From Rubrivirga marina (GTDB lineage Bacteria > Bacteroidota > Rhodothermia > Rhodothermales > Rubricoccaceae): a stretch of DNA of 64,000 nt. Numbering within the stretch: the first letter of the stretch is position 1; every line of letters starts with the position of its first letter. The notes beneath the pieces were generated by a model, which worked only from the letters and a program-made list of their open reading frames with translations, was not told where the DNA came from and did no database searches. Positions 4,151 to 46,564 of the stretch are shown here, piece after piece. The stretch lies in the NCBI RefSeq assembly GCF_002283365.1, contig NZ_MQWD01000001.1, positions 1,948,944-2,012,943 on the forward strand, written 5' to 3'. A program made the translations under genes and the position numbers.

Positions 4151-7078
4151 ATGCGCGTCGCCGTCTGGCTGGCGCTCCTCGCGTTCGCCGCCGGCGCGGC
4201 GGCCCAACCGCCGCCGCTCCAGTTCCGCCATCTCGGCCTCCCCGACGGCCTGAGCAGCTTCGCCGTGACGGCCATCGAGGCCGACGACGAGGGGTTCGTC
4301 TGGCTCGGCTCGGAGGCCGCGGCGGACCGCTACGACGGCGTTCGGGTCCGACCGCACGGGATCGGGGCGGAGGAGGAGGGCGGCTACGTCTACGCGCTCG
4401 CCACGACGCCGGACGGCGCCGTGTGGGCCGGCGGAGCGGGGGGGCTGTGGCGCTGGGGGGCGGGCGCGACGTCGTTCCGGCGGGTCCGCCTCGGCGACGG
4501 CGTCGAGGTCCGCGCGCTCGCCGTGGGCGCCGCCGACGAGGGGCACCCGGTCTGGGTGGGGACGGTCGGTGGAGGGCTCTTCCGGATCGGGGGCGGCGAG
4601 GTCCGGCGGTTCTCGGCCGTGCGCGGGCACGTCGCCTCCGACACCGTCCGGGCGCTCGTCGCGCGGGCGGGCGGGGGCGTGGTCGCGGCGACGACGGGTG
4701 GGCTGAGCTGGGTCGGGCGCGGGCCGGCCCGTCACGACCGGTCGCTCGCGGACGTCCGGGCGCTCGCCGAGGTCGGGGGGAGGCTGTGGGCGGGCCGCGA
4801 GACGGGCGACGTGGTCGGGATCGGCGACGGGCGGCGCCAGCGGCTGGTGGGCGAGGGGGCGCCGGTGTGGGCGCTGGCGCCATCCACCGTCCGGCCGGGT
4901 CACGTGTGGGTCGGGTACCGTGGCGGCGGCGTCCGCCTGCTCGACGTCCGGACGGGCACGCTCGGGCCGATGCCGCCCGCGACGGGGCTGGCCGAGGCGT
5001 TCGACCGGGCCGAGGTGCTGTCGCTCGTCGAGCGCGACGGCGTGCTCTGGATCGGGACCACACGCGGGGCCTACCACGCCGACGCGGCCCTCCCGCGGTT
5101 CACGGCCTACCGGGGCGGCGGTGGGCCCCTCGCGGTCCCCGAGGTCATCGGCGTCCACCTGTCGCCGAGCGACCCGGACGTCGTCTGGGCCGGGACCGTC
5201 CAGGGCGGCCTCCACCGGATCGGCCGGCGGACCGGACGGGCCGAGCGGTGGTTCGACGCGCCGCACCCGCTCGCCGTCCTCTTCGCCATCCAGGAAGGCG
5301 ACGAGGGTGACGTGTGGCTCGGCGGCCGGGGCGCGACGCTGTGGCGGTTCCGCCCCGAGGCCGGCGAAAGCGAGCCGTTCGAGCTCGCGCCCGGCCGCGG
5401 CGGCGCCGGCCTCATCGCCGACCTGACGCCGAGCCGGCGGTTTCCGGGCCACCTGTGGGTGAGTACGAGCGAGGCCGGCCTCGTCCGGTTCGACACGCGT
5501 GCGCGGCGCGTCGTGGCCCGCCACGTCGCGCTCGAGGGGCCGGGCCGGATCCCGGCCACCGACGTGTGGCAGGCCGTCGAGGCCGACGGCGCCCTCTGGG
5601 TGGCGACCGATGGCGAGGGGCTCTGGCAGATCGACCTGGCCTCGGGGCGGGCCGAGCGCGTGGCGCCGGAGTGCGGCCTCGGCGCCCGGCTCCTCTCGCT
5701 CGCCGCCGCGCCGGGCGGGCCCCTGTGGGTCGGCGGGCGGGACCGCCAGCTCGCCCGCCTCGACCGCGACGCGGACGGGCGCCCGACCGGCGCGTGCCGG
5801 ATCTACGGCCCGTCCGACGGGCTCCCGCCGGAGGGCGTCGGCGGCCTGTTCGTCGACGGGCGCGGCGACGTGTGGCTCAGCACGAACCTCGGGCTCGTCC
5901 GCTTCGACCCCGAGGCCGAGGTGTTCACGCCGTTCGCCGAGGCCGACGGGCTCGCGACGTCGGAGCTCTACTGGTACGCCCGCGACCAGGGCCCGACGGG
6001 CGAGATCGCCGTCGGCGGGGCCGGCGGGCTGACCGTCTTCGACCCCGACGCCGTGTCCATCGACGACGCGCCGGCCCCGGTCGTGCTCACGGGCCTCCGC
6101 GTCGACGGGCAGCGGCGCCCGCTCGCGGCGCTCGACGGCGGGCTCGTCGTCCCGCACCGCGAGAACGACGTGGCCTTCGAGTACGCCGCGCTCGACCTCC
6201 GCCAGCCCGGCAAGACGCGCTACCGCGTCCGCCTCGTCGGCGCGGCCGACCGGTGGGCCGCGGCCGGCCCGGAGACGCGCTACCCGGCCCTCGAGCCGGG
6301 CCACTACACGTTCGAGGTCGCGGCCACGAACCGCGACGGCTACTGGAGCGCGCCGGTGTCGGTCCCGCTCCGCGTGCGGCCCCCGTTCTGGCGGACGGTC
6401 CCGTTCTGGCTCCTCGTCGTCGGCCTCGTCGGCGCCGTCGGGTTCTCGGCCCACCGCTACCGGATCGCCCAGATCCAGCGCGTCGAGCGGACGCGCCGCC
6501 GGATCGCCGACGACCTCCACGACGGGATCGGGAGCAAGATCTCGAGCGTGGCTCTCCGCCTCGACATGGTCGGGCGGACGGCCGCCCTGCCCGACGCCGC
6601 GCGTGACACGCTCGCCACGCTCTCGTCGACGGCTCGCTCGGTCGTCGGCGACCTCCGCGACACCGTCTGGCTCGTCGACGCCGAGCACGACGACCTCGCC
6701 TCGGTCGTCTCGCGGATGGAGCAGTTCGCCGTCGCCACGCTCGATCGGCGCGGGACGGTCGAGGCCCCGGCGGAGGTCCCGCCCCGGACGCTCTCGATGG
6801 AGGCCCGCCGCGACCTCTACCTCCTCTTTACCGAGGCCCTCCACAACGCCGTCCGCCACGCCGAGGCGGACCGGGTCGACGTCCGCATCGAGGCCGACGC
6901 CGAGCGCGTGGCCTTCGCCGTCGAGGACGACGGGACGGGCTTCGACCCCGCCACCGCCGAGGCCGGCCGCGGCCTGACGACGATGCGCCGCCGGGCCGAG
7001 GCCCTCGGCGGCGCCGTCTCCTGGACGCCCCGCGAGGGCGGCGGCACGGCCGTCCGGTTCGAGGCCGATCTCGGGTGA
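4151..7078 (+). CDS. Propeller-type sensor histidine kinase (Reg_prop/Y_Y_Y/HisKA_3)
   Basis: The protein has 975 residues from the ATG at 4151 (a GTG two codons earlier is possible). A signal peptide ends at AAAQP. Residues 25-680 hold repeated two-component-propeller blades with recurring VWVG, LWIGTT and GDVWL motifs, followed by a Y_Y_Y domain (about 685-755, YRVRLVGAADRW) and one membrane helix (about 760-780). The cytoplasmic kinase begins with a HisKA_3 dimerisation helix (RRIADDLHDGIGSKISS; phospho-acceptor His about 789) and ends in an HATPase_c domain (TEALHNAVRH; DDGTGFD). In Bacteroidota such kinases often sense periplasmic oligosaccharides. The response regulator starts 61 bases downstream, so they form one two-component operon. 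The ligand is unknown. Confidence 0.92.
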   Translation: MRVAVWLALLAFAAGAAAQPPPLQFRHLGLPDGLSSFAVTAIEADDEGFVWLGSEAAADRYDGVRVRPHGIGAEEEGGYVYALATTPDGAVWAGGAGGLWRWGAGATSFRRVRLGDGVEVRALAVGAADEGHPVWVGTVGGGLFRIGGGEVRRFSAVRGHVASDTVRALVARAGGGVVAATTGGLSWVGRGPARHDRSLADVRALAEVGGRLWAGRETGDVVGIGDGRRQRLVGEGAPVWALAPSTVRPGHVWVGYRGGGVRLLDVRTGTLGPMPPATGLAEAFDRAEVLSLVERDGVLWIGTTRGAYHADAALPRFTAYRGGGGPLAVPEVIGVHLSPSDPDVVWAGTVQGGLHRIGRRTGRAERWFDAPHPLAVLFAIQEGDEGDVWLGGRGATLWRFRPEAGESEPFELAPGRGGAGLIADLTPSRRFPGHLWVSTSEAGLVRFDTRARRVVARHVALEGPGRIPATDVWQAVEADGALWVATDGEGLWQIDLASGRAERVAPECGLGARLLSLAAAPGGPLWVGGRDRQLARLDRDADGRPTGACRIYGPSDGLPPEGVGGLFVDGRGDVWLSTNLGLVRFDPEAEVFTPFAEADGLATSELYWYARDQGPTGEIAVGGAGGLTVFDPDAVSIDDAPAPVVLTGLRVDGQRRPLAALDGGLVVPHRENDVAFEYAALDLRQPGKTRYRVRLVGAADRWAAAGPETRYPALEPGHYTFEVAATNRDGYWSAPVSVPLRVRPPFWRTVPFWLLVVGLVGAVGFSAHRYRIAQIQRVERTRRRIADDLHDGIGSKISSVALRLDMVGRTAALPDAARDTLATLSSTARSVVGDLRDTVWLVDAEHDDLASVVSRMEQFAVATLDRRGTVEAPAEVPPRTLSMEARRDLYLLFTEALHNAVRHAEADRVDVRIEADAERVAFAVEDDGTGFDPATAEAGRGLTTMRRRAEALGGAVSWTPREGGGTAVRFEADLG

Positions 7079-7139
7079 TCACGTGAGGCCCCGCCCTCGC
7101 CCCCGTGCTACCCTACGTTTCACCGGTCGCCCGCCATCC

Positions 7140-7820
7140 ATGCCCGCATCCGATCTGTCTTCCGCCGTCGTCTGGCTCGTCGAAGACGACGCCGACTACC
7201 GCGAGGCCGTCGCCGAGCTCGTGCGCGCCCACGTCCGCTCGGTCGAGACGTTCGGGAGCGTCGAGGCCGTCCTCGCCCGCGTCGACGGGATCGGGACCGG
7301 CACGCTGGAGGGCGGCTGGCCCGAGGTCGTCCTCCTCGACGTGAACCTCCCGGGCGTGACCGGCATCGAGGGCCTGAGCGAGCTGAAGTCGCGGCTGCCC
7401 GGCTCCGTCGTCGTGATGCTGACGATCCGCGACGACGCCGACACGATCTACGCCGCGCTGGGGGCCGGCGCGAGCGGGTACCTCCTCAAGAGCGCCTCGC
7501 CCGACGAGCTGTTGGGCGCCATCCGCGAGGCCCGTGCCGGCGGGATGCTCATGCAGCGCCAGGTGGCCCGCCTCGTGCTGGCGTCGTTCGAGGCCAAGAA
7601 GCCCGCGCCCGACTACGGCCTCACGAAGCGCGAGACGGAGGTCCTCGCCGAGATGGTCGACGGCCACACGCAGCCCCAGATCGCCGACCGGCTGTTCGTC
7701 AGCCTCAGCACGGTCAACAGCCACGTGCAGAGCATCTACGCCAAGCTCCACGTCCACAACGGGAGCGCGGCCGTGGCCAAGGCCGTCCGCGAGCGGCTCG
7801 TGGAGTCGAGCGAGGCGTAG
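7140..7820 (+). CDS. NarL/FixJ-family response regulator
   Basis: The 226-residue protein has an N-terminal receiver domain (about residues 8-125) with the DD pair at VEDDADY, the phospho-acceptor Asp67 in VVLLDVNLPG and the conserved Lys in GYLLKSAS. A C-terminal LuxR-type helix-turn-helix (about 155-220) contains LTKRETEVLAEMVDGHTQPQ and RLFVSLSTVNSHVQSIYAKL. The upstream HisKA_3 kinase is the obvious partner. ATG 7140 is preferred over an in-frame GTG at 7083 because the extra arginine-rich residues do not fit a receiver domain. Its targets are not evident from this window. Confidence 0.92.
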   Translation: MPASDLSSAVVWLVEDDADYREAVAELVRAHVRSVETFGSVEAVLARVDGIGTGTLEGGWPEVVLLDVNLPGVTGIEGLSELKSRLPGSVVVMLTIRDDADTIYAALGAGASGYLLKSASPDELLGAIREARAGGMLMQRQVARLVLASFEAKKPAPDYGLTKRETEVLAEMVDGHTQPQIADRLFVSLSTVNSHVQSIYAKLHVHNGSAAVAKAVRERLVESSEA

Positions 7821-7902
7821 GCGGATTTCGGCGGGGTCGGCCGCTTCATGCGGGCCGGTCGCCGGGGGCGAGGCGTGATGGGCCCCGCCTCGGGCAACGC
7901 CA

Positions 7903-7926
7903 GGGGGGCGGGGAGGGGGGGGCGGG
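7903..7926 (+). other. G-run cluster (candidate G-quadruplex) between convergent genes
   Basis: Four runs of 6, 4, 8 and 3 guanines separated by single bases lie between the convergent response-regulator and sensor-kinase genes. This fits the classical G-quadruplex pattern with very short loops on the plus strand. Whether it forms, or serves as a transcription boundary, is inference. Confidence 0.5.
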
Positions 7927-7982
7927 CCGGACTCACGAGCCGCAGTCCGACGTGCCCGATGCCGCGCCCGTCTCGGTCCCCC

Positions 7983-9677
7983 TCACAGACCTGGGCGTTC
8001 ACGTTCAGCCCAGCCGCCCCCCGATGGCAGCTCGAGCGTGACGCGCGTCCCCCGGCCCGGCGTCGAGTCCACGTCGAGCTGCCCGCCGACGAGCGTGACG
8101 CGCTCCCAGACGGTCGGCAGGCCGAGCCCGCTGCCGCCGCGGAGCGCAGCCGGCGCCGGCGGCTCGAACCCGACGCCCTGGTCCACGACCTCGAACCGGA
8201 CGCGCCCGTCGACGCGCTCAGCGCGGACCGTCGCCCGGCCGGTCTCGGCGTGCCTCGCCACGTTGGACAGGAGCTCGCCGACGATCTGGTAGAGCAGGAT
8301 CCGGAGGTGCTCCTCGGGCACCGCGACCCCGGCGGCCTCGACCGCGACGTCGAGCCCGTGGCGCTGGCGGTGTTGCTCGGCGAGCGCGTCGAGGAGGACG
8401 GCCACCTCCTCTTCGCGGAGCACCGGCGGGCTGAGCTCGTGGGAGAGGGACCGCGTGAGGCGGAGGGCCCGGTCGAGCACGGCCCCGACCCGCTCGGCGT
8501 CGGCGACGTGGGCCTCGATCTGCGCGCCGTGGAGGACCTGCTGGAGGTCGTCGTGGAGCACGTAGGCGATCCGTCGGCGGACCTCCTGCTCGGCGATCGT
8601 CAGCGCCCGCGCCAGGTGGCGGACTTCGTACGTCCTCGCCTCGACCTGCTCCTCGAGGGTCTCGTTGGCGTCGCGGAGCGCGGCCTCGGCCCGCCGCTGC
8701 TCGGTGACGTCGGTGAACAGGAGGGCGACCCGCCGCGCCTCGGCGGGCCCGACCCGGAACGCCTCGACCGAGAACTCGCGCCCCAGCGCGGCCGACCCCT
8801 GCTGGAACCGCGCGGGCTCGCCCGTTTCGGCGACGCGGGCGTAGGTCTCGACCCAGTACCGCTCCAGCCCCGGGATGAGCTCGCACGCGGTATGCCCGAC
8901 GGGGTCCACGAGGCCGGTGTGGCGCTGGAAGGCCGGGTTGGCCTCGAGGAACCGGTAGTCCACCGCCCGGCCGCTCCGGTAGATCATCTCGAGCACGCAG
9001 AACCCCTGGTCGATCGACTCGAAGAGCGTCCGGTACTGGGTCTCGGTCTCGTGCCAGGCCGCCTCGGTCGCGGCCCGCCGCGAGACGTCGACGGCCGACG
9101 CGACGAGGCGCGTCACGCGTCCCGCCCCGTCCCACACCGGCTGGACCGTGACGTCGATCGGGAGCCGGCCCGTTTCGGACGTCCGCACGACGGCGCTGTA
9201 GGCGGCCGACTCGCCGCGCGCCGCGCGCTCGCAGGCGTCGCGGACGACGGCCTGGAGGTCCGGGTCGTGGCCGTACCAGTACCCCTCCCAGAACGGACGG
9301 CCGTTGACGTCCTCGGGCGTGACGTCGGAGGCCTCGAACACGGACCGGTTGACCTCGAGGATCGTCCCGTCGGGGTCGAGGAGCGCGACGAACGGGGAGA
9401 CGGCGTCGAGGACGCCACTCAGGAGGGCCCCCTCGCCGGCGTCGGGCCCGAGGCCGAGGGAGACCGGGCGCTCGACGCGCTCCAGCATCGCCACGAGCGC
9501 GTCGATGCTGAACCGCTCGACCTTGCCGCGGACGAGGTCGCTCACGCGCGGCTGCGTCACGCCGAGGCGGGCGGCGGCCTCGGTCTGCGTCAGGTCCTCG
9601 TCGGCGACGTACTGGGCGAGCGCGTCGGCCAGTCGGTGTCGGAGACGGACGTTGGCTGGAGGATCGGGGGACGGCAT
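7983..9677 (-). CDS. XRE/HigA2-like HTH - PAS - PAS - histidine kinase
   Basis: This 564-residue soluble protein has an unusual order. Residues about 12-60 form a helix-turn-helix like HTH_37/HigA2 antitoxins (LTQTEAAARLGVTQPRVSDL, then VRGKVERFSIDALVAMLERV). Two PAS domains follow (about 85-205 and 215-340; the first reads ALLDPDGTILEVN), then a short coiled coil, a HisKA_3-type phospho-acceptor segment (RRRIAYVLHDDLQQVLHGAQ, His375) and an HATPase_c domain (GELLSNVARHAETG; GGSGLGLPTVWERV). There are no membrane segments. It could bind DNA and sense redox or a small ligand in one chain. No response regulator is adjacent on this strand; the convergent NarL-type regulator at 7140 is a possible partner. 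The start is the ATG next to a short AT-rich palindrome. Confidence 0.85.
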   Translation of the reverse strand: MPSPDPPANVRLRHRLADALAQYVADEDLTQTEAAARLGVTQPRVSDLVRGKVERFSIDALVAMLERVERPVSLGLGPDAGEGALLSGVLDAVSPFVALLDPDGTILEVNRSVFEASDVTPEDVNGRPFWEGYWYGHDPDLQAVVRDACERAARGESAAYSAVVRTSETGRLPIDVTVQPVWDGAGRVTRLVASAVDVSRRAATEAAWHETETQYRTLFESIDQGFCVLEMIYRSGRAVDYRFLEANPAFQRHTGLVDPVGHTACELIPGLERYWVETYARVAETGEPARFQQGSAALGREFSVEAFRVGPAEARRVALLFTDVTEQRRAEAALRDANETLEEQVEARTYEVRHLARALTIAEQEVRRRIAYVLHDDLQQVLHGAQIEAHVADAERVGAVLDRALRLTRSLSHELSPPVLREEEVAVLLDALAEQHRQRHGLDVAVEAAGVAVPEEHLRILLYQIVGELLSNVARHAETGRATVRAERVDGRVRFEVVDQGVGFEPPAPAALRGGSGLGLPTVWERVTLVGGQLDVDSTPGRGTRVTLELPSGGGWAERERPGL

Positions 9678-13509: not shown

Positions 13510-14370
13510 ATGGCTCGCTCCCTGCTCGCCGCGCTCGTCGCGGTCCTCGCCTTCGCCCAGGCCGCCCAGGCCCAGTCCGACGCCCTCCGCCGCGTCGTCC
13601 TCGCCGACGGAACGGTCCTCGTCGGGTTCGTCGCCGATGAGGGCGCCGACCCGGTCGTCCTCACCACGGAGTCGGGCGTGGAGCAGCGGATCCCGCGGGC
13701 GCAGGTCGTCGAGATCGCGCCGCTCATCGCCGGCCGCTTTTTCCGCCTCGACCCCACGCGGACCCGCCTCGTCCTCTCGCCGACCGGCCGGACGCTCGGC
13801 GGCGGCCGCACGCGCGTCGGCACGCTCCTCTACATCGTCCCGAACGCGACCGTCGGCCTCAACGACCGACTGGACCTGGGCGGCACGTTGTTCTTCTCCT
13901 TCGGCTCCGACTACCTCTCGGCCGTCCCCGTGGTGGGCGCGAAGTTCGGCGTCGTCGACACGGGCTCGTTCGCCCTCGCGGTCGGCGGCAACGTCGGGAC
14001 GGCGCTGGGGGAGGACACCGACGGCACCTTCGTCGCGACGCCCTACGCCGCCGTCACGATCGGCGACGAAATCCGGTCGCTCTCGGCGAGCGTGACCGGG
14101 CTGATCGGGGCGAGCCTCTCGGCCGGCGACATCGACGCGGCCGACGGCGTGCTGCTGGCGGTCGGCGGCGAGGCCCAGCTCAACAACGGCGTCAAGATCC
14201 TCGCCGACGTCGGCGTGCCGATCGCGGAGGGCGGCAGCGGGGCCGTCGTCGCGCCGGGCGTCCGGTTCTTCGGCGACCGCTACTCCGTCGACCTGTTCGG
14301 CGTGCTGGGCGTGGCCGACGGCGAGTTCGGCGGGTTCGCTCCGATCGGCAACTTCGCGTTCAACTTCTAG
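13510..14370 (+). CDS. Secreted or outer-membrane beta-rich protein
   Basis: The 286-residue protein has a signal peptide ending in AQAAQAQS. A small N-terminal domain (LADGTVLVGFVADEGADPVV, then ESGVEQRIPRAQVVEIAPL) looks like the SH3-like barrel that precedes barrel domains in many Bacteroidota proteins. The rest alternates short strands rich in Gly, Ser and aromatics (LNDRLDLGGTLFFSFGSDYL; VGAKFGVVDTGSFALAVGGN) and ends in the aromatic signature FAFNF, typical of outer-membrane beta-barrels. No enzyme motif is visible. It is probably an outer-membrane protein of unknown function, monocistronic between the SDR and the large peptidase-propeller-barrel gene. Confidence 0.7.
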   Translation: MARSLLAALVAVLAFAQAAQAQSDALRRVVLADGTVLVGFVADEGADPVVLTTESGVEQRIPRAQVVEIAPLIAGRFFRLDPTRTRLVLSPTGRTLGGGRTRVGTLLYIVPNATVGLNDRLDLGGTLFFSFGSDYLSAVPVVGAKFGVVDTGSFALAVGGNVGTALGEDTDGTFVATPYAAVTIGDEIRSLSASVTGLIGASLSAGDIDAADGVLLAVGGEAQLNNGVKILADVGVPIAEGGSGAVVAPGVRFFGDRYSVDLFGVLGVADGEFGGFAPIGNFAFNF

Positions 14371-14472
14371 CCGGCGCGGGGTAGGGGACGGCCGCATAAC
14401 CCGCTGCCGGGGTCGTTTCCCCCTTGCCGCCGCCCCACCGCGCGGCTACCCTGACCGACCCGGCCCCGCCCG

Positions 14473-17400
14473 ATGCCTCGCCTCCTCCGCCTCGTCGTCC
14501 TGCTCGCGGTCGCCGCCAGCGCGGCGCCGGCGAGCGCCCAGTACTTCGGGTTCGGCAAGAACCGCGTCCAGTACCGCGAGGCCGACTGGCGGACGCTCCG
14601 GACGTCGCACTTCGACGTCTACTACTACGAGCGCGACGCGGCGCCGGGCGGGCGCGTCCTCGCCGAGTTCGCCGCCGAGGCGGCCGAGGAGGCCTACAGC
14701 GAGGTCTCGGCCCTCTTCGGCACCGACATCGCCCGGCGGATCCCGCTCGTCGTCTACCCGACCCACGCCGACTTCGCCGTCACGAACGTGGCCGAGCTCC
14801 CGGTCTACGCCGAGGGCATCGGCGGCGTGACCGAGCTGTTCAAGAACCGGATCGCGATCCCGTTCACCGGCGACTGGCGCGACTTCCGGCGCGTCGTCCA
14901 CCACGAGCTGGTCCACGCCGTCATCAACGACCTGTACTACGGCGGGTCGATCCAGAGCCTGATCCGCAGCGGCAACCGGCTCCGCATCCCGACGTGGTTC
15001 AACGAGGGGCTGGCCGAGTACAGCGCGCAGGGCTGGGACACGCAGTCCGACATGTACGTCCGCGAGGCGATCCTCGAGGACCGGCTGCCCGACATCCCCC
15101 GCCTCGGCGGGTTCTTCGCCTACCGCGGCGGGCAGGGCGTGTGGGACTTCGTGGCCCAGGAGTACGGCCGCGAGAAGATCACCGAGATCCTCGACCGGAT
15201 CCGCCTCGGGCGGAGCGTCGACGACGCGTTCCGCCGCGCGACCGGGCTCGGGCTCGACGACCTCTCCGAGCGCTGGAAGCGGACGCTCCGGACGGTCTAC
15301 TACCCCGAGGTCGCCGCCCGCGAGGACGTCGAGGCGGTGGCGCGGCCCGTCGCGACCCGGGACGTCGGCGGGGCCGGCTACCACGCGAGCCCCGTCATCA
15401 CGCCGCAGGGCGACCGCGTGGCCTACGTCGCCACCCGCGACGGCCTCTTCGACGTGTACGTCGCCCCGACGGCCGGCCGCGACGCGCCCTGCAAGGTGAT
15501 CGACGGCCAGGACAACGTCCAGTTCGAGAGCCTGCGGATCCTGACGCCGGGCCTCGCGTGGAGCCCCGACGGCCGCCGTCTCGCGGTGGCGGTCACGAGC
15601 GCCGGCCGCGACCAGATCGCCCTCGTCGATGTGCGCGAGGGCGACGTCGAGAGCGTCGACCTGCCGGGCGTCGAGTCGGTCGTGTCGGTCGCCTGGAGCC
15701 CCGACGGCACGCGCCTCGCCTTCGAGGGGACGGCCGGGGCGACCTCCGACATCTACACCGTCGAGCTGGCGACGGGCGCCGTCGCCAACCTCACGCGCGA
15801 CCTGTACTCCGACCACGCGCCGGCCTGGAGCCCCGACGGGCGCTCGCTCGTGTTCCACTCCGACCGCGCCGACGCGCTCGTCCTCGGCCGGGCGACGCCC
15901 CGCGCGGCGTTCGACGGCACGTTCGACACCCGCGCGCTCGGCCGCGGCCAGTTCGACCTGTACCGGCTCGACCTCGACACGCCCGCCCGCCTCGTCCGCC
16001 TGACGACCGAGGCGGTCTGGGACGAGACGGACGCCGCGTTCGCCCAGAGCGCCGACGGAACGGTCCGCCTCCTGTTCGTGAGCGACCGGAACGGGATCCC
16101 GAACCTCTACGAGAAGGACCTCCGCACGCTCGAGGAGCGGCCGCTGACGAACCTCCAGACGGGCATCCTCGACGTCTCGCTCTCGGCCGACGGGAGCCGC
16201 GCGGTCTTCCTCGCGCTCGACGACGGCACGCCGAGCGTGTTCTTCCTCCGCGACCCGTTCGGCCGCGACGACCTGCCCGCGACGCTCGCCCCGAACGTCT
16301 GGGCCCAGCGCCGGATGGGCGGGGCCGACGAGCCGGCCCCGTCGCTCCTCCTGGCCTCCGAGACGACCCGCGAGCGGAACCCGCTCCTCCGCGACGCCGC
16401 CGACGGCCGCCCGCCGGCCGCCCCCCCGCGCCGCGCCGGCCCGCCGACGCCCGAGGACCTCGCCTTCGCCGACTCGATCCTCGCGCTCCTCGGCGACCCA
16501 CCCCCCGACCTCCTCGCCTCGGCCGACACGCTCCTCCTCGACCCGACGGCCCCCGAGCGCGGTCCGCGCGTCGACATCGACGCCTACGAGTTTTCCGACG
16601 CCTTTGACGGTGGGGCCCGCCAGCGGTCTGGCGCCGTCGAGGACCCGTTCGACCCGCCGTTCGCCCGCGACTCGACGGGCGCGCTCCTCGCCCGCGACTA
16701 CCGGCTCCGGTTCTCGCTCGACCTCGTCTACGCCGGCGGCGGCTACGACACGATCTACGGCGTCCAGAGCGTGACGCAGCTCCTGTTCTCGGACATGCTC
16801 GGCAACCACCGGATCGGGCTGGCGACGAACCTCGTCCTCGACCTCCGCAACTCCGACTACGTCCTCTCCTACGAGTACCTCCCGAAGCGGACGGACGTCG
16901 CGGTCCAGGGCTACCACCTCGCCCGCCAGCTCCGGGCGCCGGGCGCCAACACGATCTACCGCTACCGGAACTACGGCGTCATCGCGAGCGCGCGCTACCC
17001 GCTCGACAAGTTCCGCCGCGTCGACGCCGAGGTGGGCCTCCTCGGGGTCTCGCTGACGGACCTCTCGAACCTCGGCGAGCGCGCCCGGAGCCGCCTGTTC
17101 GCCGTTCCCCGCGCGACGTACACCGTGGACAAGACGGTCCCGGGGTACCTCGGGCCGCAGTCGGGAACGCGCTGGGCGGCCAGTCTTTCGGGCGCGCCCG
17201 GTCCCGACGCCTTCTTCGCCACGGCCCTCGCCGACGGCCGGCGCTACTGGTCGGCCGGGCCGGGCTACGCGCTCGCGCTCCGCGGCTCGGCCGGGCTCAG
17301 CCTTGGGCCCAACCCGCAGCGGTTCTACGCGGCCGGCGTCCAGAACTGGGTCAAGACGTCGTTCGACAGCCTCCCGGTTGAGAGCGCCGACGACTTCATC

Positions 17401-17808
17401 TTCGCCACGCCGGTCCTGCCGGTCCGGGGGTTCGGCTTCAACGAGGCCGCCGGCGACCGCTTTGCGCTCGTGAACCTCGAGGCCCGCGTGCCGCTCATCG
17501 CCGCCGTCCTCCCCGGCCCGATCCCGCTCGCGCCGCTCTACAACATCCAGACGGTCGGCTTCATCGACGCCGGCGTCATCGCCGACGGCGGGATCGACGT
17601 GTGGCGGACCGAGTCGGTCGACGACGACGGCGACCCGGCGACGCCGGAGGTCGAGCGCGAGGTGCTCGACGACGTGCTCCTCGGCGCCGGCGTCGGCCTG
17701 CGGACGTTGCTCCTCGGCTACCCCGTCCGCCTCGACTGGGGCTGGCCGTTCGACGGGAAGGAGTTCGGCGAGCGCCGGCTGTACTTCTCCATCGGGCTGG
17801 ACTTTTAG
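14473..17808 (+). CDS. Gluzincin peptidase - TolB-like propeller - outer-membrane barrel fusion
   Basis: This is a 1,111-residue exported protein (signal ending ASAQ). Residues about 25-275 form a peptidase-MA-like gluzincin domain with zinc motif HHELVHAV (His144-Glu145...His148) and the downstream glutamate in WFNEGLAEYSAQG (Glu178). Residues about 290-640 are WD40-like/PD40 repeats as in TolB, with recurring AWSPDGRRLAV, AWSPDGTRLAF and AWSPDGRSLVFHSDR. A Pro/Ala-rich linker (about 645-700) precedes a C-terminal barrel-like region (about 725-1111) that ends YFSIGLDF with a terminal Phe, as in surface-antigen/BamA-like domains. The architecture suggests an outer-membrane protein with a metalloprotease and propeller on the periplasmic side. 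Its substrate is unknown. Confidence 0.82.
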   Translation: MPRLLRLVVLLAVAASAAPASAQYFGFGKNRVQYREADWRTLRTSHFDVYYYERDAAPGGRVLAEFAAEAAEEAYSEVSALFGTDIARRIPLVVYPTHADFAVTNVAELPVYAEGIGGVTELFKNRIAIPFTGDWRDFRRVVHHELVHAVINDLYYGGSIQSLIRSGNRLRIPTWFNEGLAEYSAQGWDTQSDMYVREAILEDRLPDIPRLGGFFAYRGGQGVWDFVAQEYGREKITEILDRIRLGRSVDDAFRRATGLGLDDLSERWKRTLRTVYYPEVAAREDVEAVARPVATRDVGGAGYHASPVITPQGDRVAYVATRDGLFDVYVAPTAGRDAPCKVIDGQDNVQFESLRILTPGLAWSPDGRRLAVAVTSAGRDQIALVDVREGDVESVDLPGVESVVSVAWSPDGTRLAFEGTAGATSDIYTVELATGAVANLTRDLYSDHAPAWSPDGRSLVFHSDRADALVLGRATPRAAFDGTFDTRALGRGQFDLYRLDLDTPARLVRLTTEAVWDETDAAFAQSADGTVRLLFVSDRNGIPNLYEKDLRTLEERPLTNLQTGILDVSLSADGSRAVFLALDDGTPSVFFLRDPFGRDDLPATLAPNVWAQRRMGGADEPAPSLLLASETTRERNPLLRDAADGRPPAAPPRRAGPPTPEDLAFADSILALLGDPPPDLLASADTLLLDPTAPERGPRVDIDAYEFSDAFDGGARQRSGAVEDPFDPPFARDSTGALLARDYRLRFSLDLVYAGGGYDTIYGVQSVTQLLFSDMLGNHRIGLATNLVLDLRNSDYVLSYEYLPKRTDVAVQGYHLARQLRAPGANTIYRYRNYGVIASARYPLDKFRRVDAEVGLLGVSLTDLSNLGERARSRLFAVPRATYTVDKTVPGYLGPQSGTRWAASLSGAPGPDAFFATALADGRRYWSAGPGYALALRGSAGLSLGPNPQRFYAAGVQNWVKTSFDSLPVESADDFIFATPVLPVRGFGFNEAAGDRFALVNLEARVPLIAAVLPGPIPLAPLYNIQTVGFIDAGVIADGGIDVWRTESVDDDGDPATPEVEREVLDDVLLGAGVGLRTLLLGYPVRLDWGWPFDGKEFGERRLYFSIGLDF

Positions 17809-17840
17809 AGTCGGGGCTCCCGGTTCGCGGTTCCGAGTGG

Positions 17841-17864
17841 GCCCGACTCGGCGCCGAGGCGGGC
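17841..17864. repeat. Short GCCCG(A/C)CTCGG...CCGAGGCGGGC palindrome
   Basis: An imperfect 24-bp palindrome (one mismatch) lies 32 bases after the peptidase-propeller-barrel stop. It belongs to the same family as the palindromes at 19648, 25162, 44776, 52393 and 55024, and probably forms a terminator-like hairpin. Confidence 0.55.
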
Positions 17865-17889
17865 AGGGTGGAGGCGCTGGGGGTCTGGG

Positions 17890-18026
17890 TGTCATCCTGA
17901 GCGAGCGGAGCGAGTCGAAGGATCTCTAGCGAATGCGACCTCACTGCGCGCTCTCGGCTACAGCGTGGGGTCCCGTCGCACCAGAGATCCTTCGGCTTCG
18001 GCCTGTGGCCTCCGCTCAGGATGACA
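17890..18026. repeat. TGTCATCCTGAG palindromic element, copy 1 (long type)
   Basis: The 137-bp element has inverted ends, TGTCATCCTGAGCG at the left and CGCTCAGGATGACA (with one variation) at the right, plus an inner inverted pair around GGATCT. It fills most of the 402-base gap between the barrel protein and tig, the only gap over 300 bases in the window. Its core shares TGCGCGCTCTCGGC and GTCGCACCAGAGATCC with copy 2 but not with copies 3-5. It encodes no protein. It looks like a small non-autonomous palindromic repeat (MITE- or REP-like). The remainder of the gap holds only the short palindrome at 17841 and the tig promoter area. Confidence 0.8.
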
Positions 18027-18177
18027 CGGTTGGGGGTGTTCGGCGCCCCGCCAACGGCATCTCCCCGTACAGCGTGCACTCTCCATGCCCTCCTCACCCC
18101 CGGGCGGGCACGCAGCAGATAGGTTCACCGTATCCCCCCGTGCGCGGTGCCCCCAGTTCGGCGCCGCGCACGCCGTC

Positions 18178-18183
18178 TATAGA
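18178..18183 (+). promoter_or_regulatory. Candidate -10 element (TATAGA) of tig
   Basis: TATAGA sits inside the 8-base palindrome TCTATAGA, 27 bases before the trigger factor start, an isolated AT-rich word in GC-rich DNA. A start site about six bases downstream would leave a leader of about 21 bases. No convincing -35 hexamer is seen. Confidence 0.35.
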
Positions 18184-18210
18184 GACCTGCCGCAGAGCGA
18201 CCCCCGACCG

Positions 18211-19635
18211 ATGCAGACCGACGTCCGAGCCCTCAACAGCGTCGACTACGTCCTCGACGTGACCGTCCCCGCCGAGGACCTCCAGCCCCAGATCGACGCC
18301 GCGCTCAAGCGCGAGCGCGCCCAGATGAACCTCAAGGGGTTCCGTCCGGGCAAGGTCCCGATGAACGTGGTCCGCCGGATGGTCGGGCCGCAGGTCGCGG
18401 TCCAGATCGCCGAGCAGGCCATCGGCGAGGCCTACCGGACGGCCGTGGCCGAGAACGAGGAGATCGAGCCGCTCGGGCAGCCGCGCCTCGTCGAGCTCGA
18501 CTTCGACTTCGAGACGGCCGACCAGCCGCTCAAGGCGCAGGTCCAGTTCGGCGTCCGCCCCGAGATCACGCTCGCCGACCTTTCCGACGTGCCCGTGACC
18601 CGCGTCGTCCGCGCCTTCACCGACGAGGACATCGACGCCGACATCCAGCGCCGCCGCGACCTCGCCGCCGAGGAGGAGGACGCGCCCGAGGGCACGGCGA
18701 TCACGACCGAGCACGTCGCGATGGTCGACATCCAGCCCGTCGATCCGGAGGGCAACGCGACGGGCGTCAAGCAGAACGCGGCCCGGATCGTCATGGCCAA
18801 CCCGGACCTCCGCCCCGAGATGGTCGAGGCCCTCGAAGGCCTCACCATCGGCGACGAGACGACCGTCGAGCTCCCGCACCTCCACGGCGACGACGAGGGC
18901 CACGACTACGACGACCACGTCGACCGCTACAAGCTGACCGTCGTCGACGTGCTGGAGCGCGTGGTGCCGGAGGTCGACGCCGACTTTATCAAGTCGCAGA
19001 CGAACGGGGAGAGCGAGGACCTCGATGACCTCAAGGGCCAGATCCGCGAGGAGCTCGAGAGGTCCTGGGCGGCCCGGGCCAACCAGGCCCTCGAGCAGAA
19101 GATGGTCGAGGAGTTCGTCCTCGGCCACCGCGAGACGGTCGCCGTGCCCGAGACGCTCGTGGAGGCCGCGCTCGACACGATGTTCGAGGAGGCCAAGAAG
19201 CAGCACGGCGGCGACCTCCCGCCGACGTTCGACGTGGACGCGTGGCGCGAGCAGAACCGCCAGCAGGCCCAGGACCAGGTCCGCTGGCTCCTCATCAAGG
19301 ACGCGCTGATCGAGGAGGAGGGCCTGGAGGTGACCAACGAGGACTTCGAGGCCGAGTTCGAGAAGCTCTCCGGCGACGGCGCCGACGCCGAGCTCGTCAA
19401 GCAGTACTTCTCGTCGCAGCCGCGACTCCTCGAGCAGATGGGCGACCAGCTCCTCAACCAGCGCGTGTTCGGCGCGCTCGAGGGCCGGTTCCGCGTCGTC
19501 GAGAAGTCGGCCGACGAGATCCGCGCCGAGGCCGAGGCCCGCCGCGAGGCCGCCGCGAAGGCTCCCGTCCAGCTCACGCCTGCCGCCGAGCCGGCCGAGG
19601 CCGGCGAGGAGACGGAGGCCGAGGACGAGGCGTAG
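18211..19635 (+). CDS. tig: Trigger factor
   Basis: The 474-residue protein is a ribosome-associated chaperone with peptidyl-prolyl isomerase fold. The N-terminal ribosome-binding domain carries the signature GFRPGKVP (about residue 46). A divergent FKBP-like middle domain (about 150-250) has an unusually acidic insert ([18 protein letters not shown]). The C-terminal helical arms run from about 260 to 440 and end in an Ala/Glu-rich tail. ATG 18211 is chosen because [19 protein letters not shown] matches the normal trigger factor start; longer in-frame starts run into the repeat-containing leader. clpP lies 223 bases downstream, the usual tig-clpP order, but a strong hairpin separates them. 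Confidence 0.93.
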
Positions 19636-30268: not shown

Positions 30269-32224
30269 ATGCAACGCACTGCTACTCTCCTCGTGCTCGG
30301 CCTCCTGATGGCCGGGCCGGCGCTCGCCCAGCCCGACCGGGTCGGGCAGGACGTCGTCTGGGCCCGCGACATCGGGTCCGCTTCGATCACCCTCGACGGC
30401 ATGCTCAACGAACCCGAGTGGGCCTCCGCCGAGACGCTCCAGTTCCGGTGGAACGACCCGCTCGGGTTCCCGGGCAGCGGCCAGTTCTTCGAGACGAACC
30501 CGTTCGGCCTCACCGACCCGGCGGACCCGACGGACGCCACGATGTACTTCCTCCGCAAGGGGAACGACCTCTACATCGGGATGATGGCCCAGGACGAGTC
30601 CGTCGGCGGGGCCACGAGCCTCTGGAACTTCGACGGGATCATCATGGCCATGACCAACAAGGCCAACCGTCCGGACGACTTCTCGGAGCTCGACGACTAC
30701 AGCGGGTTCGGCGCCGTCCGCGCCGAGTTCTTCTACGCGTGGTTCCACCCGGCGGACACGACAGACACGGGCATGGTGGTCCCGGGGATCGACCCCCGCG
30801 GGTTCTCCAACTTCTTCGGCGTCGGGTTCGGTGACCCGATGGACGCGGAGCGGAACGAGGAGGCGTGGGATTACGCCACGACCGTCGACGGCGTCGCCAA
30901 CGACGACTTCAACGGCGGCTCCGAGTTCACGCCCGACAACGGGTACACGATGGAGATGCGGATCGCGCTCGACTCCCTCGGCTGGAGCCTCTCCGAGCCG
31001 ATGGCCCGCGTCCCGATCAGCCTCGCCGTCGAGGACGCCGACTACGGCTGGCCGCAGGACCCCGAGCAGTACGTCGCGACCCGGACGTGGTGGCAGAGCC
31101 GCTGGGGCAACAACTACAACGAGGGCGTGGCCTACGTGGCCGGCGACCCGAGCGTGACCGTCTCGTCGGGCCCGGCCCCGGCCTACACCGAGCCCGAGTT
31201 CACCGTCCCGAGCGGGCTGAACCTCCCGGAGGTGACCGTCGACGGCATGCTCGATGAGCCCGCCTGGGACGCCATCGACCCGCAGTTCCGCCTCCAGTAC
31301 CAGGCCGACGCCGACTTCCTGGACGCGAACCTGCCGGGCCCCGTGGCCCAGACGAACACGTTCTACTTCCACCCGGATGAGAACCCGGTCCTCGACCCGA
31401 CCATCGGGAACATCTCGATGTTCTACAAGGGCTCGCGGCTCTACATCGGGCTCGACACCGACGACCAGGCCATCAACGGGAGCGAGTCCGAGAACACGCG
31501 GGACGGCTTCCGCCTGATCATCCGGTCGCGGGACAGCACGATCGCCGGCCTCCAGTACGCCGCCGAGCACCTCCGCCTCGACTTCTCGATCGACTCGACG
31601 GGCGCCGTTCGGTTCACCAACGCCCCCGACGAACTCCTCGTGGACGGCGTGGTCGAGACCGGCGTCTCGTTCAAGGGGGCGTCGACGGTCGCCGACCCGA
31701 GCGACATCGACACGGGTTATCAGATGGAGGTCTCGATCGACCTCTCGGCGATCGGCTACGACGGCGACCTCGAGAGCGACGGCGCCCAGATCTACATCGC
31801 GCTGAACTACTTCGACGGCGACTCCCTCGAGGACGACGCCCAGAGCTACGGGACGCGCACGTGGATCGTCGGTGAGCGCGGCAACGGCGCGGCGATCTAC
31901 GGCTACCTCGACCCGGCGACGCTCGTCAACACGGCCGCCGAGGGCGCGCCGGGCGCCGACGTGCTCCAGATCGGTGCCACGTATCCGAACCCGTCGACGG
32001 GCCTGACGACGCTCCGCTACGAGCTGAGCCGGGCCGCCGAGGTCACCGTCGAGGTGTTCGACGTGCTCGGCCGCCGCGTCCAGCGGACGGACGGCGTCGC
32101 TCGCGCCGCGGGCGTCCATGAGGCCACGGTCGACGGCCGCGCGCTCAGCGCCGGCGCCTACGTCGTCCGCGTGAGCCTCGCGGACGGCACGACGGCGACG
32201 GGCCGGATGCTCATCGCTCGCTAG
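30269..32224 (+). CDS. T9SS-exported surface glycan-binding protein with two CBM9-like domains
   Basis: The 651-residue protein has a signal peptide (ending GPALAQ), two CBM9/DOMON-like beta-sandwich domains and a T9SS sorting domain. The repeats open with the same motif, SITLDGMLNEPEWASAE at about residue 38 and TVDGMLDEPAWDAIDP at about 322. Both continue with strands like DLYIGMMAQDES and RLYIGLDTDDQAI, typical of CBM9_1 carbohydrate binding. The C-terminal part (about 572-651: YPNPSTGLTTLRYELSRAAE, LGRRVQR, GAYVVRVSLADG) is a type A sorting domain. It probably captures glycan at the cell surface for the TonB receptor encoded next, doing the job SusD does in classical loci. The ligand is inferred. 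Confidence 0.85.
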   Translation: MQRTATLLVLGLLMAGPALAQPDRVGQDVVWARDIGSASITLDGMLNEPEWASAETLQFRWNDPLGFPGSGQFFETNPFGLTDPADPTDATMYFLRKGNDLYIGMMAQDESVGGATSLWNFDGIIMAMTNKANRPDDFSELDDYSGFGAVRAEFFYAWFHPADTTDTGMVVPGIDPRGFSNFFGVGFGDPMDAERNEEAWDYATTVDGVANDDFNGGSEFTPDNGYTMEMRIALDSLGWSLSEPMARVPISLAVEDADYGWPQDPEQYVATRTWWQSRWGNNYNEGVAYVAGDPSVTVSSGPAPAYTEPEFTVPSGLNLPEVTVDGMLDEPAWDAIDPQFRLQYQADADFLDANLPGPVAQTNTFYFHPDENPVLDPTIGNISMFYKGSRLYIGLDTDDQAINGSESENTRDGFRLIIRSRDSTIAGLQYAAEHLRLDFSIDSTGAVRFTNAPDELLVDGVVETGVSFKGASTVADPSDIDTGYQMEVSIDLSAIGYDGDLESDGAQIYIALNYFDGDSLEDDAQSYGTRTWIVGERGNGAAIYGYLDPATLVNTAAEGAPGADVLQIGATYPNPSTGLTTLRYELSRAAEVTVEVFDVLGRRVQRTDGVARAAGVHEATVDGRALSAGAYVVRVSLADGTTATGRMLIAR

Positions 32225-32231
32225 CCCCTCC

Positions 32232-32265
32232 AGGTGCGGACCGGCCTTCGGGCGGGCCCGCACCT
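32232..32265 (+). terminator. UUCG-capped hairpin after the CBM9 gene
   Basis: AGGTGCGG pairs with CCGCACCT, with an inner GGCC-TTCG-GGC(G)GG stem capped by a TTCG tetraloop, then CCGTTTG. It starts 7 bases after the stop. It may attenuate transcription into the TonB receptor or stabilise the upstream mRNA. Confidence 0.6.
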
Positions 32266-32272
32266 CCGTTTG

Positions 32273-32316
32273 CCCGAGGCGGGCCGAGCCGGACGCTCGG
32301 CCCGGCCCGCCTCGGG
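32273..32316. repeat. Nested CCCGAGGCGGG...CCCGCCTCGGG inverted repeat
   Basis: Arms of 11 bases enclose an inner CCGAGC/GCTCGG pair. This is a long hairpin of the CCGCCTCG family in inverted polarity, 28 bases before the TonB receptor start. Confidence 0.6.
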
Positions 32317-32344
32317 TCCTCGGGTCCTCGCCCTTCGGACTCCC

Positions 32345-35110: not shown

Positions 35111-35117
35111 CGCCCGC

Positions 35118-35154
35118 CCCGCCTCGGCGCCCCCGCGGGCGCTCCCGAGGCGGG
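35118..35154 (+). terminator. CCCGCCTCGG...CCGAGGCGGG hairpin
   Basis: Ten-base arms with an inner CGCCC/GGGCG pair lie 8 bases after the TonB receptor stop and 24 bases before the next start. Confidence 0.6.
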
Positions 35155-35177
35155 CCGATCCGGCCCTCCGCACCGCA

Positions 35178-38100
35178 ATGACTTCGACGCACCGCCTCTC
35201 CGCTGCCCTCGCGCTGCTCCTGGCCGCGCTGGCGCCGGCCGCCGGCGCCCAGGCGCCCCTGCCCACCACGCCGCCCGAGTTCCGCGGCCAGATCAACGCC
35301 GAGCGCCAGGGGCTCCACGACGCCAACCGGATCCGGACCCTGTTCTACAACTACGGCATGGTCGGCGACTTCGAGGGGAACGCCGACCTCAGCGTGTTCC
35401 ACTCGGTCGAGGTCCCCCGCGGCATCGGGCTCAACTACTCCGACGGCATCACGCCGTACGTCCTCGCCCGCGTCACCCAGGAGAACGGGACCCAGGCCTA
35501 CGTCATGCTCACGGGGTTCCGCGAGCGCCAGGCCCGGAGCCCGCTCACCAACCGCATCATGCGGTTCGAGCCGCGCCCGGGCTACGTCGAGACCGACCCC
35601 GAGATCAACGAGGGCACGGCCGTCGCCATCTCGAACGACTTCCGGACGTGGCCCGGCGCGGCCAACCTCAACGAGGAGTTCGACCCGGCCACGGACCCGA
35701 CCGAGTGCTGGTACGACAAGCGGGACGACCCCGACGACCCGGGCTGGTGCGGGTCCTGGAACGGGTTCTTCGGCAAGCGGCCCAACGCCGACCAGGAGTC
35801 GTTCTTCGTCATGGACGACAACTACTACGACGCGTTCGCCTTCTTCCCCGACAGCCGGGACCGGACGCGGCGCGGGCTCGGCCTCCGCGTCGAGGTCCGC
35901 GGCTTCCAGTGGGCCAACCCGCAGGCCCAGGACGTCATCTTCTGGCACTACGACATCGTCAACGAGTCGACGACGCGCTACGACGACATCATCTTCGGGC
36001 TCTACATGGACTCGGGCGTCGGCGGCTCGGGGCTCTCGTGCGACGGCGTCGCCGAGTCCGACGACGACAACGCCCGGTTCGTGCGGAACCTCAACGGGCG
36101 CGACCTCGACCTCGTCTACACCTGGGACGAGGGCGGCCACGGCGTCTCGCTGAGGTCGAACTGCGAGGAGACCGGCTACCTCGGCTACGCCTACCTCGAG
36201 ACGCCCGGCGACGCGACCGACGGCCTCGACAACGACGCCGACGGGATCACCGACGAGCGCCGCGACAACGAGCCCGGCGACCCGGTCGTGGGCCAGGACG
36301 CCATCCGCGCGGCCATGCTGGCCCGGGGCTACGACCTCGCCCAGTTCGAGATCGAGTACGGCCCGCTCGAGCAGCGGCCGGCCTACGTCGCCGGCATCTG
36401 GTTCCCCGGCGACGAGGACCTCGACTGGACCGCCGAGTTCTCCGACACCGGCGCCGACGGCGTCTACGCCGACGACCGGACGTTCGGCAGCGGCGAGCCC
36501 GACACGGGCGAGAACGACGGGATCCCCACGCCCGGCGAGCCCAACTTCAACCAGACCGACATCACCGAGTCGGACCAGATCGGGCTCACGGGGTTCAAGC
36601 TCAACCGGATCCGGGGCTCGGGCGAGGTCGACGGCATCGTGTTCTTCCAGAACGAGAGCCGGTGGCCCGAGCGGCTCTACGAGCAGTTCTCGGACGAGAA
36701 CCCGAACGTCCGCTTCGACCCGACGATCGTCAACAACTACAACATCGGGTTCCTCTTCGCCTCGGGCCCGTTCACGCTCGACGTCGGGCGGCGGGAGCGG
36801 TTCAGCCTCGCGCTCGCCTACGGCTCGAACCTGACGGACCTCCAGGACAACGTCGAGGTCGTCCAGTCGATCTACGACGCGAACTACCAGTTCGCCACGC
36901 CGCCGCCGCTCCCGACGGTCCAGGCGTTCGCCGAGGACGGCCAGGTCACGCTCGTGTGGGACACCCGCGCCGAGCGCTCCATCGACCCGGTCACGAACCT
37001 CAACGACTTCGAGGGCTACCGGGTCTACCGCTCGACCGACCCCAACTTTCTCGACCCGCAGGTCATCCTCGACGGCCGCGGCACCGGGCCCATCGGGAAT
37101 GGCCGGCCCATCGCCCAGTTCGACCTCGACAACGACGTCAACGGGTACTCGAACCTCGCCGTCAGCGGGATCCAGTACTACCTCGGAGACGACACCGGCA
37201 TCACGCACCGGTTCACGGACACCGACGTCGTCAACGGACAGACGTACTACTACGCCGTGACGGCCTACGACTCGGGCTCGGAGGCCTTCAACTTCTACCC
37301 GTCGGAGAACTCGATCACGGTCTCGCGGACGCTCCGCGGCGGGACGATCCTGCCCCCAAACGTGGTCCAGGTCCGACCGAACGCCCGCGTGCCCGGCTAC
37401 GTCGGCGCGACGGCGTCGGAGCCGCAGCGCGTCTCGGGCGAGGGCACGGGCACGGTCACCGTGAACGTCCTGAACTCGGACGTCGTCCCGGAGGGCCGCT
37501 TCCGGGTCGAGTTCGAGGGCTCGGCCGACAGCGTCGCCGCGCGGACGTACTCGCTCGTCGACCTCGACTCGGGCGAGGTCCTGGTCGAGGGCGGGACGGA
37601 CTTCGCGGGGGCCGAGACCGGGCCGATCTCGGCCGGCGTCCAGCCCGTCGTGACCACGCTGGCCGGCGTCACGCCCGACCCCGACGCCAGCGGGTTCACG
37701 TCCGGCTCGACGAGCACGACGCTGACCGGGTCGTACATCGGGCCGCTCTCGCCGAACCTCATCCGCGAGGGGTACCCCGAGGACGTGGTCCTCGAGTTCG
37801 CCGACACGCCGCTCACGACGTCGCGGGCCGCGATCGGGCAGCCGCCGACCCCGGCCAACTTCCGCCCGACCGGGGCCGACTCCGGCTTCGAGTACGAGTT
37901 CTTCTACCGCGAGCTCAGCGGCGACAACACCCTCAACGCGGCCGGCGAGTTCATCGACCTCCTCACGCCCGACCCCGCCTCGGGCGCGCTCCGGGCCACC
38001 TGGCGCATCGAGGTCACCGAGGCCGGCGACGCGCCAGGCGCCGGCGACACGTTCCGCCTCGTGGTCCTCACGCCGTTCGGCCCCGACGACGCGTTCACGT

Positions 38101-38465: not shown

Positions 38466-38473
38466 CCGCCGCC

Positions 38474-39502: not shown

Positions 39503-39514
39503 ACCCACGTTCCG

Positions 39515-39530
39515 TCCCCCTGGAGGGGGA
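39515..39530 (+). terminator. Small hairpin TCCCCC-TGGA-GGGGGA
   Basis: A perfect 6-bp stem with a 4-base loop lies 12 bases after the PorV-like stop. It is weak as a terminator, with no T-run, and may only modulate read-through to the GH144 gene. Confidence 0.4.
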
Positions 39531-39610
39531 GAGAGGACGGCGGAGTGACGACGGCCACGGCGCCGCTCGCTTCGCCCTCACCCCCGCCTGTCCCGCCTCC
39601 CCGACCCCTC

Positions 39611-44769: not shown

Positions 44770-44775
44770 CCCCGC

Positions 44776-44795
44776 CCGCCTCGGCCCCGAGGCGG
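44776..44795. repeat. CCGCCTCGGCCCCGAGGCGG-type palindrome
   Basis: Nine-base arms (CCGCCTCGG/CCGAGGCGG) lie 6 bases after the GH3 stop, another copy of the short palindrome family and a likely hairpin terminator. Confidence 0.65.
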
Positions 44796-44822
44796 ACGGA
44801 CCCACCGCCCACCCCACATCCC

Positions 44823-46355: not shown

Positions 46356-46391
46356 TGACCATCAGGGTCCGAGGATCGGGGAGCGGGGGAC

Positions 46392-46409: not shown

Positions 46410-46417
46410 TGAATCCG

Positions 46418-46560: not shown

Positions 46561-46564
46561 GCGG

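Follow-up and report, generated by a model that had tools for sequence, protein, structure and literature searches.

A gluzincin-type head, a TolB-like propeller and an Omp85 barrel in one Rubrivirga marina protein: a candidate factor in outer-membrane quality control

What might a bacterium do with a metalloprotease, a propeller and an outer-membrane barrel joined in one chain? The question is raised by a gene of Rubrivirga marina that lies within the window, by which we mean the whole stretch of 64,000 nucleotides analysed here (contig NZ_MQWD01000001.1, forward-strand positions 1,948,944 to 2,012,943). An earlier note, made from the letters alone, had described its product as a gluzincin site followed by PD40 repeats and a barrel-like domain ending in Phe, and had supposed a part in envelope quality control or in peptidoglycan-linked processes. 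The three-part chain is borne out by Pfam, by an AlphaFold2 model and by structure matches, and the reading frame and its terminal Phe are where the note placed them. We suggest, with confidence and doubt about equally balanced, that the protein is an outer-membrane biogenesis or quality-control factor whose mode of action resembles that of a BepA-type protease joined to an Omp85 barrel. The features on which the argument relies are these:

14473..17808, plus strand: the whole gene, 1111 residues with a TAG stop (signal peptide, gluzincin, TolB-like propeller, Omp85 barrel).
14473..14538, plus strand: putative Sec signal peptide, residues 1-22 (ending at ASA, before Q), judged by eye, with low predicted local distance difference test (pLDDT) values at 12-23.
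14683..15288, plus strand: Peptidase_MA_2 (gluzincin-type) domain, residues 71-272 (Pfam, 46.8 bits against a cut-off of 32.4).
14902..14916, plus strand: HELVH, residues 144-148, with presumed zinc ligands H144 and H148 and catalytic E145 (motif, alignment).
15004..15006, plus strand: E178 in WFNEGLAEY, the presumed third zinc ligand (motif, alignment).
15343..16275, plus strand: TolB-like propeller, residues about 291-601, six blades counted (PD40 and TolB matches, AlphaFold2 strands, structure match).
16405..16677, plus strand: low-confidence, poorly conserved linker, residues about 645-735, in which no POTRA is recognised.
16711..17805, plus strand: 16-strand Omp85 barrel, residues 747-1111 (Pfam, AlphaFold2, structure matches).
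17422..17433, plus strand: VRGF, residues 984-987, in loop 6, the long loop between strands 11 and 12 (model, alignment).

Relatives were gathered in one scan of genome contigs, which found 163 stretches encoding a relative. The best 80 were kept as loci, and 68 of them make up, with the window protein, the alignment that we call A1, the other 12 of the 80 being omitted as cut off, broken or misread. Conservation runs the full length of the protein in these 68 loci (33-74% identity). The best 80 loci are recorded as Rhodothermota, Balneolota, Ignavibacteriota, Candidatus Kryptoniota, Fidelibacterota or Bacteroidota, or without phylum, and a single one recorded as Pseudomonadota is perhaps an error of binning. 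One of the loci, L054, comes from a metagenome-assembled genome of a Rhodothermus sp. A search of 198 sampled genomes of the window's GTDB phylum, scoring three candidates per genome, gave 98, the window genome included, with a single near-full-length match whose E is 0; in three more the protein appears as two halves that share one frame, and another has the N-terminal half only. Phe is the last residue of the window protein, as it is in 60 of 68 loci with a stop present. The GC content is 73-74%, and a long antisense open reading frame (ORF; 14446-17895, minus strand) overlaps it. Because the conservation across phyla is that of the plus-strand protein, we dropped this antisense frame as a gene and take it for a by-product of the high GC content. 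A scan for promoters and terminators returned no sites.

We turn to the head, where the translated sequence has H144, E145, H148 and E178 as the earlier note had numbered them. Their roles as ligands or catalyst are assigned from what is known of gluzincins, in which a glutamate of the E145 type is catalytic and not a ligand. The window protein has both HExxH and the downstream glutamate by which gluzincins are recognised; the chance expectation of HExxH from its composition is 0.004, and 20 of 20 N-terminal segments match Peptidase_MA_2 at E<=0.01. Every one of the 80 rows covering the site (the window and 79 of the 80 loci) retains both HExxH and E178, and E145 is conserved as strictly as the ligands; the count was made on a set of 81 rows, of which L081 begins downstream of the site and is not counted. 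Three loci, L012, L043 and L055, each show HELVH and WF-x-EGLAE, the frames of the latter two being broken in the record. A search of solved structures with the head profile gave no credible match (best E 0.69), and there was no peptidase among the 50 matches listed for the full model; it is Pfam, the motif and the full-length model, and not a fold match to a solved structure, that support the assignment of the head. Membership in M48, the BepA type, was considered, but the Peptidase_M48 profile has no Pfam match in the protein at E<=1. Zinc binding and proteolysis by the head are predictions from its sequence.

The propeller is recognised by PD40 (77.2 bits in Pfam, cut-off 20.9), and a sequence search of the PDB with the window protein retrieves TolB. 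In the full-length AlphaFold2 model, which was built on the 69 rows of A1 (pLDDT 84.8, predicted template modelling score, pTM, 0.84), residues 314-601 superpose on TolB 3iax over 244 residues with a VIA-align Z of 26.8 and a root-mean-square deviation (rmsd) of 2.5; the Foldseek E is 8.4e-13. NCBIfam gives partial TolB matches far under the family cut-off and weak Omp85/TamA matches. Membership in TolB itself was considered as well, but Pfam finds no TolB_N in the protein at E<=1: the propeller fold is common to both, whereas here it is fused to a protease and a barrel. TolB_N (PF04052) is matched in none of 15 genomes, the window genome among them, and in 3 of 14 control genomes.

As for the C-terminal domain, which the earlier note had left at barrel-like, AlphaFold2 does predict a barrel, and specifically one of the Omp85 type with the BamA/TamA fold. 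Sixteen strands are counted in the model, from 747-759 through 1102-1107, and the loop between strands 11 and 12, spanning 945-995, holds VRGF in the loop-6 arrangement of Omp85; R985 is invariant across the 69 rows. The VRGF/Y loop-6 motif is named for Omp85 in PMC12611786 (PMC, PubMed Central), and section 10 of PMC4104836 defines the superfamily by its barrel; the sixteen-strand C-terminal barrel and the motif place the protein within it. Pfam recognises Omp85 (PF01103) at 900-1111 with 28.1 bits against a cut-off of 24. Over 749-1111 the barrel matches BamA 8xnb at Z 23.7 and rmsd 3.9 for 300 residues (Foldseek E 1.8e-11), and the TamA chain 8us1 is listed at Z 21.5, its alignment ranging over 35-1111. 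The barrel modelled alone and without an alignment had a pLDDT of 30.1 and was set aside. A generic porin or autotransporter barrel is ruled out by the Omp85 profile, the loop-6 motif and the fold match. No POTRA is matched in Pfam at E<=1, and the segment preceding the barrel is the low-confidence linker.

A propeller of the WD40/PD40 kind on an Omp85 barrel, with POTRA absent, is what defines the WD40-Omp85 subfamily of Heinz and Lithgow (2014), who likened it to a BamA-BamB fusion (PMC4104836), and by this definition the window protein fits there. The described subfamily likewise has an N-terminal TolB-like propeller and a C-terminal Omp85 barrel without POTRA; in contrast to the window protein, it has no head domain in section 10 of that paper, and the word "peptidase" is absent from the main text. 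The paper's "Metallo" class is a different thing, resting on PF00149, which according to Pfam is a calcineurin-like phosphoesterase. Proteins of the WD40-like Omp85 kind were called not well characterized in 2024 (PMC11116518). Among the matches listed in our searches of open-licence PMC papers, none described this subfamily as having a peptidase head, and none turned up the conservation of the zinc site in the main family and in both paralogues of the window genome, its loss in a divergent clade or the linkage to tamB-like and rnr genes, all described here. The available text of a paper on the evolution of the translocation and assembly module (PMC4494059) does not mention WD40, that of a paper on the β-barrel assembly machinery (BAM) of Bacteroidota (PMC12611786) mentions neither peptidase nor propeller, and the abstract on TamL (PMC12045153) mentions no such protein.

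Three better-known systems resemble the protein in part. BamA, TamA and TamL share the 16-strand barrel and the loop-6 motif but bear POTRA domains, where the window protein has a propeller and a peptidase. PlpD, too, is an enzyme head fused to an Omp85 barrel, although its head is patatin-like, POTRA is present and a propeller is not (PMC11116518); that head stays in the periplasm (PMC11116518). BepA, a periplasmic zinc metallopeptidase of family M48, matures or degrades LptD, probably at the BAM complex (PMC8423444). It is likewise an HExxH zinc peptidase tied to outer-membrane assembly and expected at the periplasmic face of that membrane (PMC8423444), but it is an M48 protein in its own right and has no barrel, whereas the head of the window protein is Peptidase_MA_2.

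The window genome encodes two further proteins with the order peptidase, propeller, Omp85 and an intact HExxH, and so holds three:

L097, 1346-4378, minus strand: paralogue in the window genome.
L098, about 5075-8332, plus strand: paralogue in the window genome.

Paralogue P0001 (1010 residues; HELVH, WFTEGLAE, LRGF) has all three parts above the Pfam cut-offs. In P0003 (HELVH, FVIEGMAE, VRGY) only the propeller scores above its cut-off, and for this reason its head and barrel rest on the A1 alignment, the motifs and a PF01103 match in the genome search. HELVH and the glutamate are kept in 11 of 11 aligned proteins of the paralogue types.

A quite different picture emerges from at least 11 genomes (families f17, f30, f31 and f40), each with one full-length divergent member scoring 390-509 bits to the A1 profile. 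No HExxH occurs anywhere in any of the 11, the aligned sites reading for example YKITE, YQITR or QGIAR; at the position of E178 a glutamate stands in 2 of 11, and the rest have S, T, G, N or D, while the loop-6 RG is kept in all 11. Pfam, run on four of these proteins, recognised a head in 0/4, Omp85 in 0/4 and PD40 above its cut-off in 1/4; given how little it recognises, their three-part make-up rests on the full-length matches to A1. In a quick tree of 36 rows, unrooted and with meeting long branches flagged by the program, seven divergent members form one side of a branch (Shimodaira-Hasegawa-like approximate likelihood ratio test, SH-aLRT, 100). In the same tree no single branch sets group I apart (2 changes), and both paralogue groups branch within it, so that strict orthology between the groups is unestablished. 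Since the zinc site is present in group I and in the two paralogue groups alike, a single loss in the divergent clade is the simplest reading. The earlier note had named loss of the zinc site in orthologues as what would count against it: no such loss is found in the main family (80 of 80 rows intact) or in the paralogue types (11 of 11), and it is found throughout the divergent clade (11 of 11). Proteolysis cannot, then, be the sole conserved job of the architecture, which suggests that the remainder of the protein has a job independent of it. As a separate observation, in the loci L127-L132 (five of these loci listed, with divergent members) YicC-like, MBL-fold and PssA-like neighbours were identified by eye, as were PorU/PorV-like neighbours in L127; the latter may point to Bacteroidia as the home of the divergent clade.

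At the outer membrane, Omp85 barrels are known to serve in the assembly or movement of proteins. It is because of this role, together with the precedents of a periplasmic head in PlpD and of BepA, that we propose assembly and quality control as the work of the window protein. After Sec export, the barrel would be inserted in the outer membrane and the peptidase head and propeller would hang into the periplasm below; by analogy with PlpD and other Omp85 proteins, a periplasmic orientation of both is the most likely one. The propeller might dock a partner or a client chain, while the barrel, with its loop-6 VRGF lock, would engage clients, whether unfolded barrels or lipoproteins, or else a bridge of the TamB type. 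The peptidase would then trim or remove stalled clients, which would be the logic of BepA fused to an Omp85 barrel. The clients, the proteolysis and the partnership with TamB or BAM are what we infer.

How far do the neighbours of the gene agree with such a role? An RNase R gene lies next upstream on the same strand in 28 of the 75 loci whose upstream flank is 600 bp or longer (Balneolota 7/7, Ignavibacteriota 14/17); one member scores 379 bits to RNB and another meets TIGR02063. A long TamB-like gene precedes RNase R in 22 of the 65 loci whose flank on that side is 3.5 kb or more, and these are all the RNase R loci reaching that far (Balneolota 4/4, Ignavibacteriota 12/15). The profile of these TamB-like proteins finds TamB structures at E 1.9e-10 and the TamB frame of the window genome at 4.8e-32. 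Pfam TamB is matched by 6 of the 22 and missed at E<=1 by the other 16, initial Pfam scans of two gave no match, and one full-length member matches AsmA; Pfam TamB being mostly silent, the identification rests on the profile searches and the one AsmA match. Among 20 genomes, hand-picked together with 16 regions to span the families and not at random, 10 show the order tamB-like, rnr, gene, and in a further one only rnr is present. The order at one locus is lpxD, lpxC-fabZ, lpxA, hldE kinase, hldE adenylyltransferase, AsmA/TamB-like, rnr, gene, with two other genes interspersed. Of the 20 picked genomes, 4 have, among the matches listed, a BamA-like Omp85 with several POTRA matches no more than 16 kb away and on the strand of the gene. 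Envelope quality control, as the earlier note had it, is thus in keeping with the Omp85 identity and with the tamB/lpx/bamA neighbourhood of relatives, but the window genome has no such neighbourhood.

Indeed, several observations weigh against the quality-control proposal. The tamB-like linkage is found in 0 of the 10 Rhodothermota loci with at least 3.5 kb upstream; the TamB of the window genome lies elsewhere, adjoining a POTRA-bearing Omp85, and the window gene, with no tamB linkage, is followed by trigger factor. Since the RNase R gene sits between the two, the tamB link could itself reflect a shared chromosomal block. Proteolysis is dispensable in the 11 members that lack the zinc site. 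Moreover, each of the 20 picked genomes has 4-10 Omp85 matches, the present protein included, with at least two POTRA-bearing frames per genome that could supply insertion, and M48 peptidases occur in 15 of 15 genomes tested, those of the window genome being separate proteins. The neighbour named above is this:

18085..19635, plus strand: trigger factor ORF (Trigger_N, Trigger_C; Pfam), downstream neighbour; a similar downstream gene was seen by eye in 8 of the 80 loci.

The tamB-like gene two genes upstream (22 of 65 loci, 10 of 20 picked genomes) also invites the reading that the protein is a TamA-like partner of TamB-type bridges, inserting lipid or protein through a POTRA-less barrel, with the propeller for docking and the peptidase as a minor accessory. 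The listing of the TamA chain 8us1 and the retention of the loop-6 RG in all members without the zinc site agree with this. However, the intervening RNase R gene, the absence of a POTRA match, the strict conservation of the zinc site in the main family and the fact that TamB in the window genome adjoins a POTRA-bearing Omp85 instead all count against it, and we consider it unlikely, though worth keeping in view. We are more doubtful still of a non-proteolytic scaffold, a periplasmic platform in which a TolB/BamB-like propeller is fused to the barrel and the metal site is structural or binds peptide. Loss of HExxH with retention of the full-length match and of the loop-6 RG, in 11 of 11 genomes from four families, is what such a scaffold would lead one to expect, and the lack of TolB_N matches in the 15 genomes leaves room for a TolB-like platform; yet E145, the catalytic residue, is as conserved as the ligands in the 80 main-family rows and the 11 paralogue-type proteins.

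A surface or secreted protease exported through its own barrel seems to us distinctly improbable. Such export was reportedly once proposed for PlpD, whose order of enzyme head and Omp85 barrel is that of the window protein. The option was also raised for the Omp85-enzyme class by Heinz and Lithgow (PMC4104836, section 10), but PlpD, the case that has been studied, retains its head in the periplasm (PMC11116518), and here a folded propeller of about 300 residues separates head from barrel. That the fusion is a matter of chance or mis-annotation without joint function, for which only the high GC content and the overlapping ORFs speak, deserves practically no credence in view of the full-length conservation in 68 loci and a pTM of 0.84. 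A peptidoglycan-linked role, the other suggestion of the earlier note, was dropped: Pfam finds no peptidoglycan-binding domain in the protein, and none appears among those neighbours that were scanned with profiles, most neighbour clusters being unscanned.

Returning to the quality-control proposal, we would venture a bolder version of it, held tentatively and with the balance of our judgement somewhat against it: that the protein is a checkpoint of outer-membrane assembly complete in itself, its Omp85 barrel bearing its own client-docking propeller and zinc protease, and that one lineage dropped the protease while retaining the insertase or platform. The family spans several phyla and in some adjoins lipid A and TamB genes. 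If this version holds, at least part of the "WD40-Omp85" proteins would be real protease-Omp85 fusions, and the divergent clade would be a natural experiment separating insertion from proteolysis. The conserved gluzincin head, the zinc-less clade and the tamB/lpx/bamA linkage in some lineages would put a testable idea in the place of "unknown function", namely that in some bacteria the insertase-type barrel itself has quality control of the outer membrane built in, and the clades that have the zinc site allow a direct comparison with the one that lacks it.

Some further observations concern the surroundings of the gene. In the window, a 286-residue exported-looking ORF (13510-14370, plus strand) lies upstream of it and has no family match above cut-off. 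Seven Balneolota loci (L024-L030) have a convergent gene just downstream, one scanned member of which carries T9SS_plug_1st, the type IX secretion plug. Seven Fidelibacterota loci have an LpxH-like phosphoesterase upstream on the opposite strand, for example L077 4144-4920 (minus strand), at 111.3 bits against an NCBIfam cut-off of 134. Elsewhere in the window, the adjacent ORFs 35178-38465 and 38449-41463 (plus strand; 1095 and 1004 residues) have no Pfam match at E<=1e-5, and either may be a non-coding frame in this high-GC window. The plus strand at 30269-50058 holds a block resembling those for polysaccharide use, with a protein bearing a type IX secretion C-terminal tail, a TonB-dependent receptor, two large ORFs, GH3 and GH2, and a solute-binding protein follows at 52562-53836.

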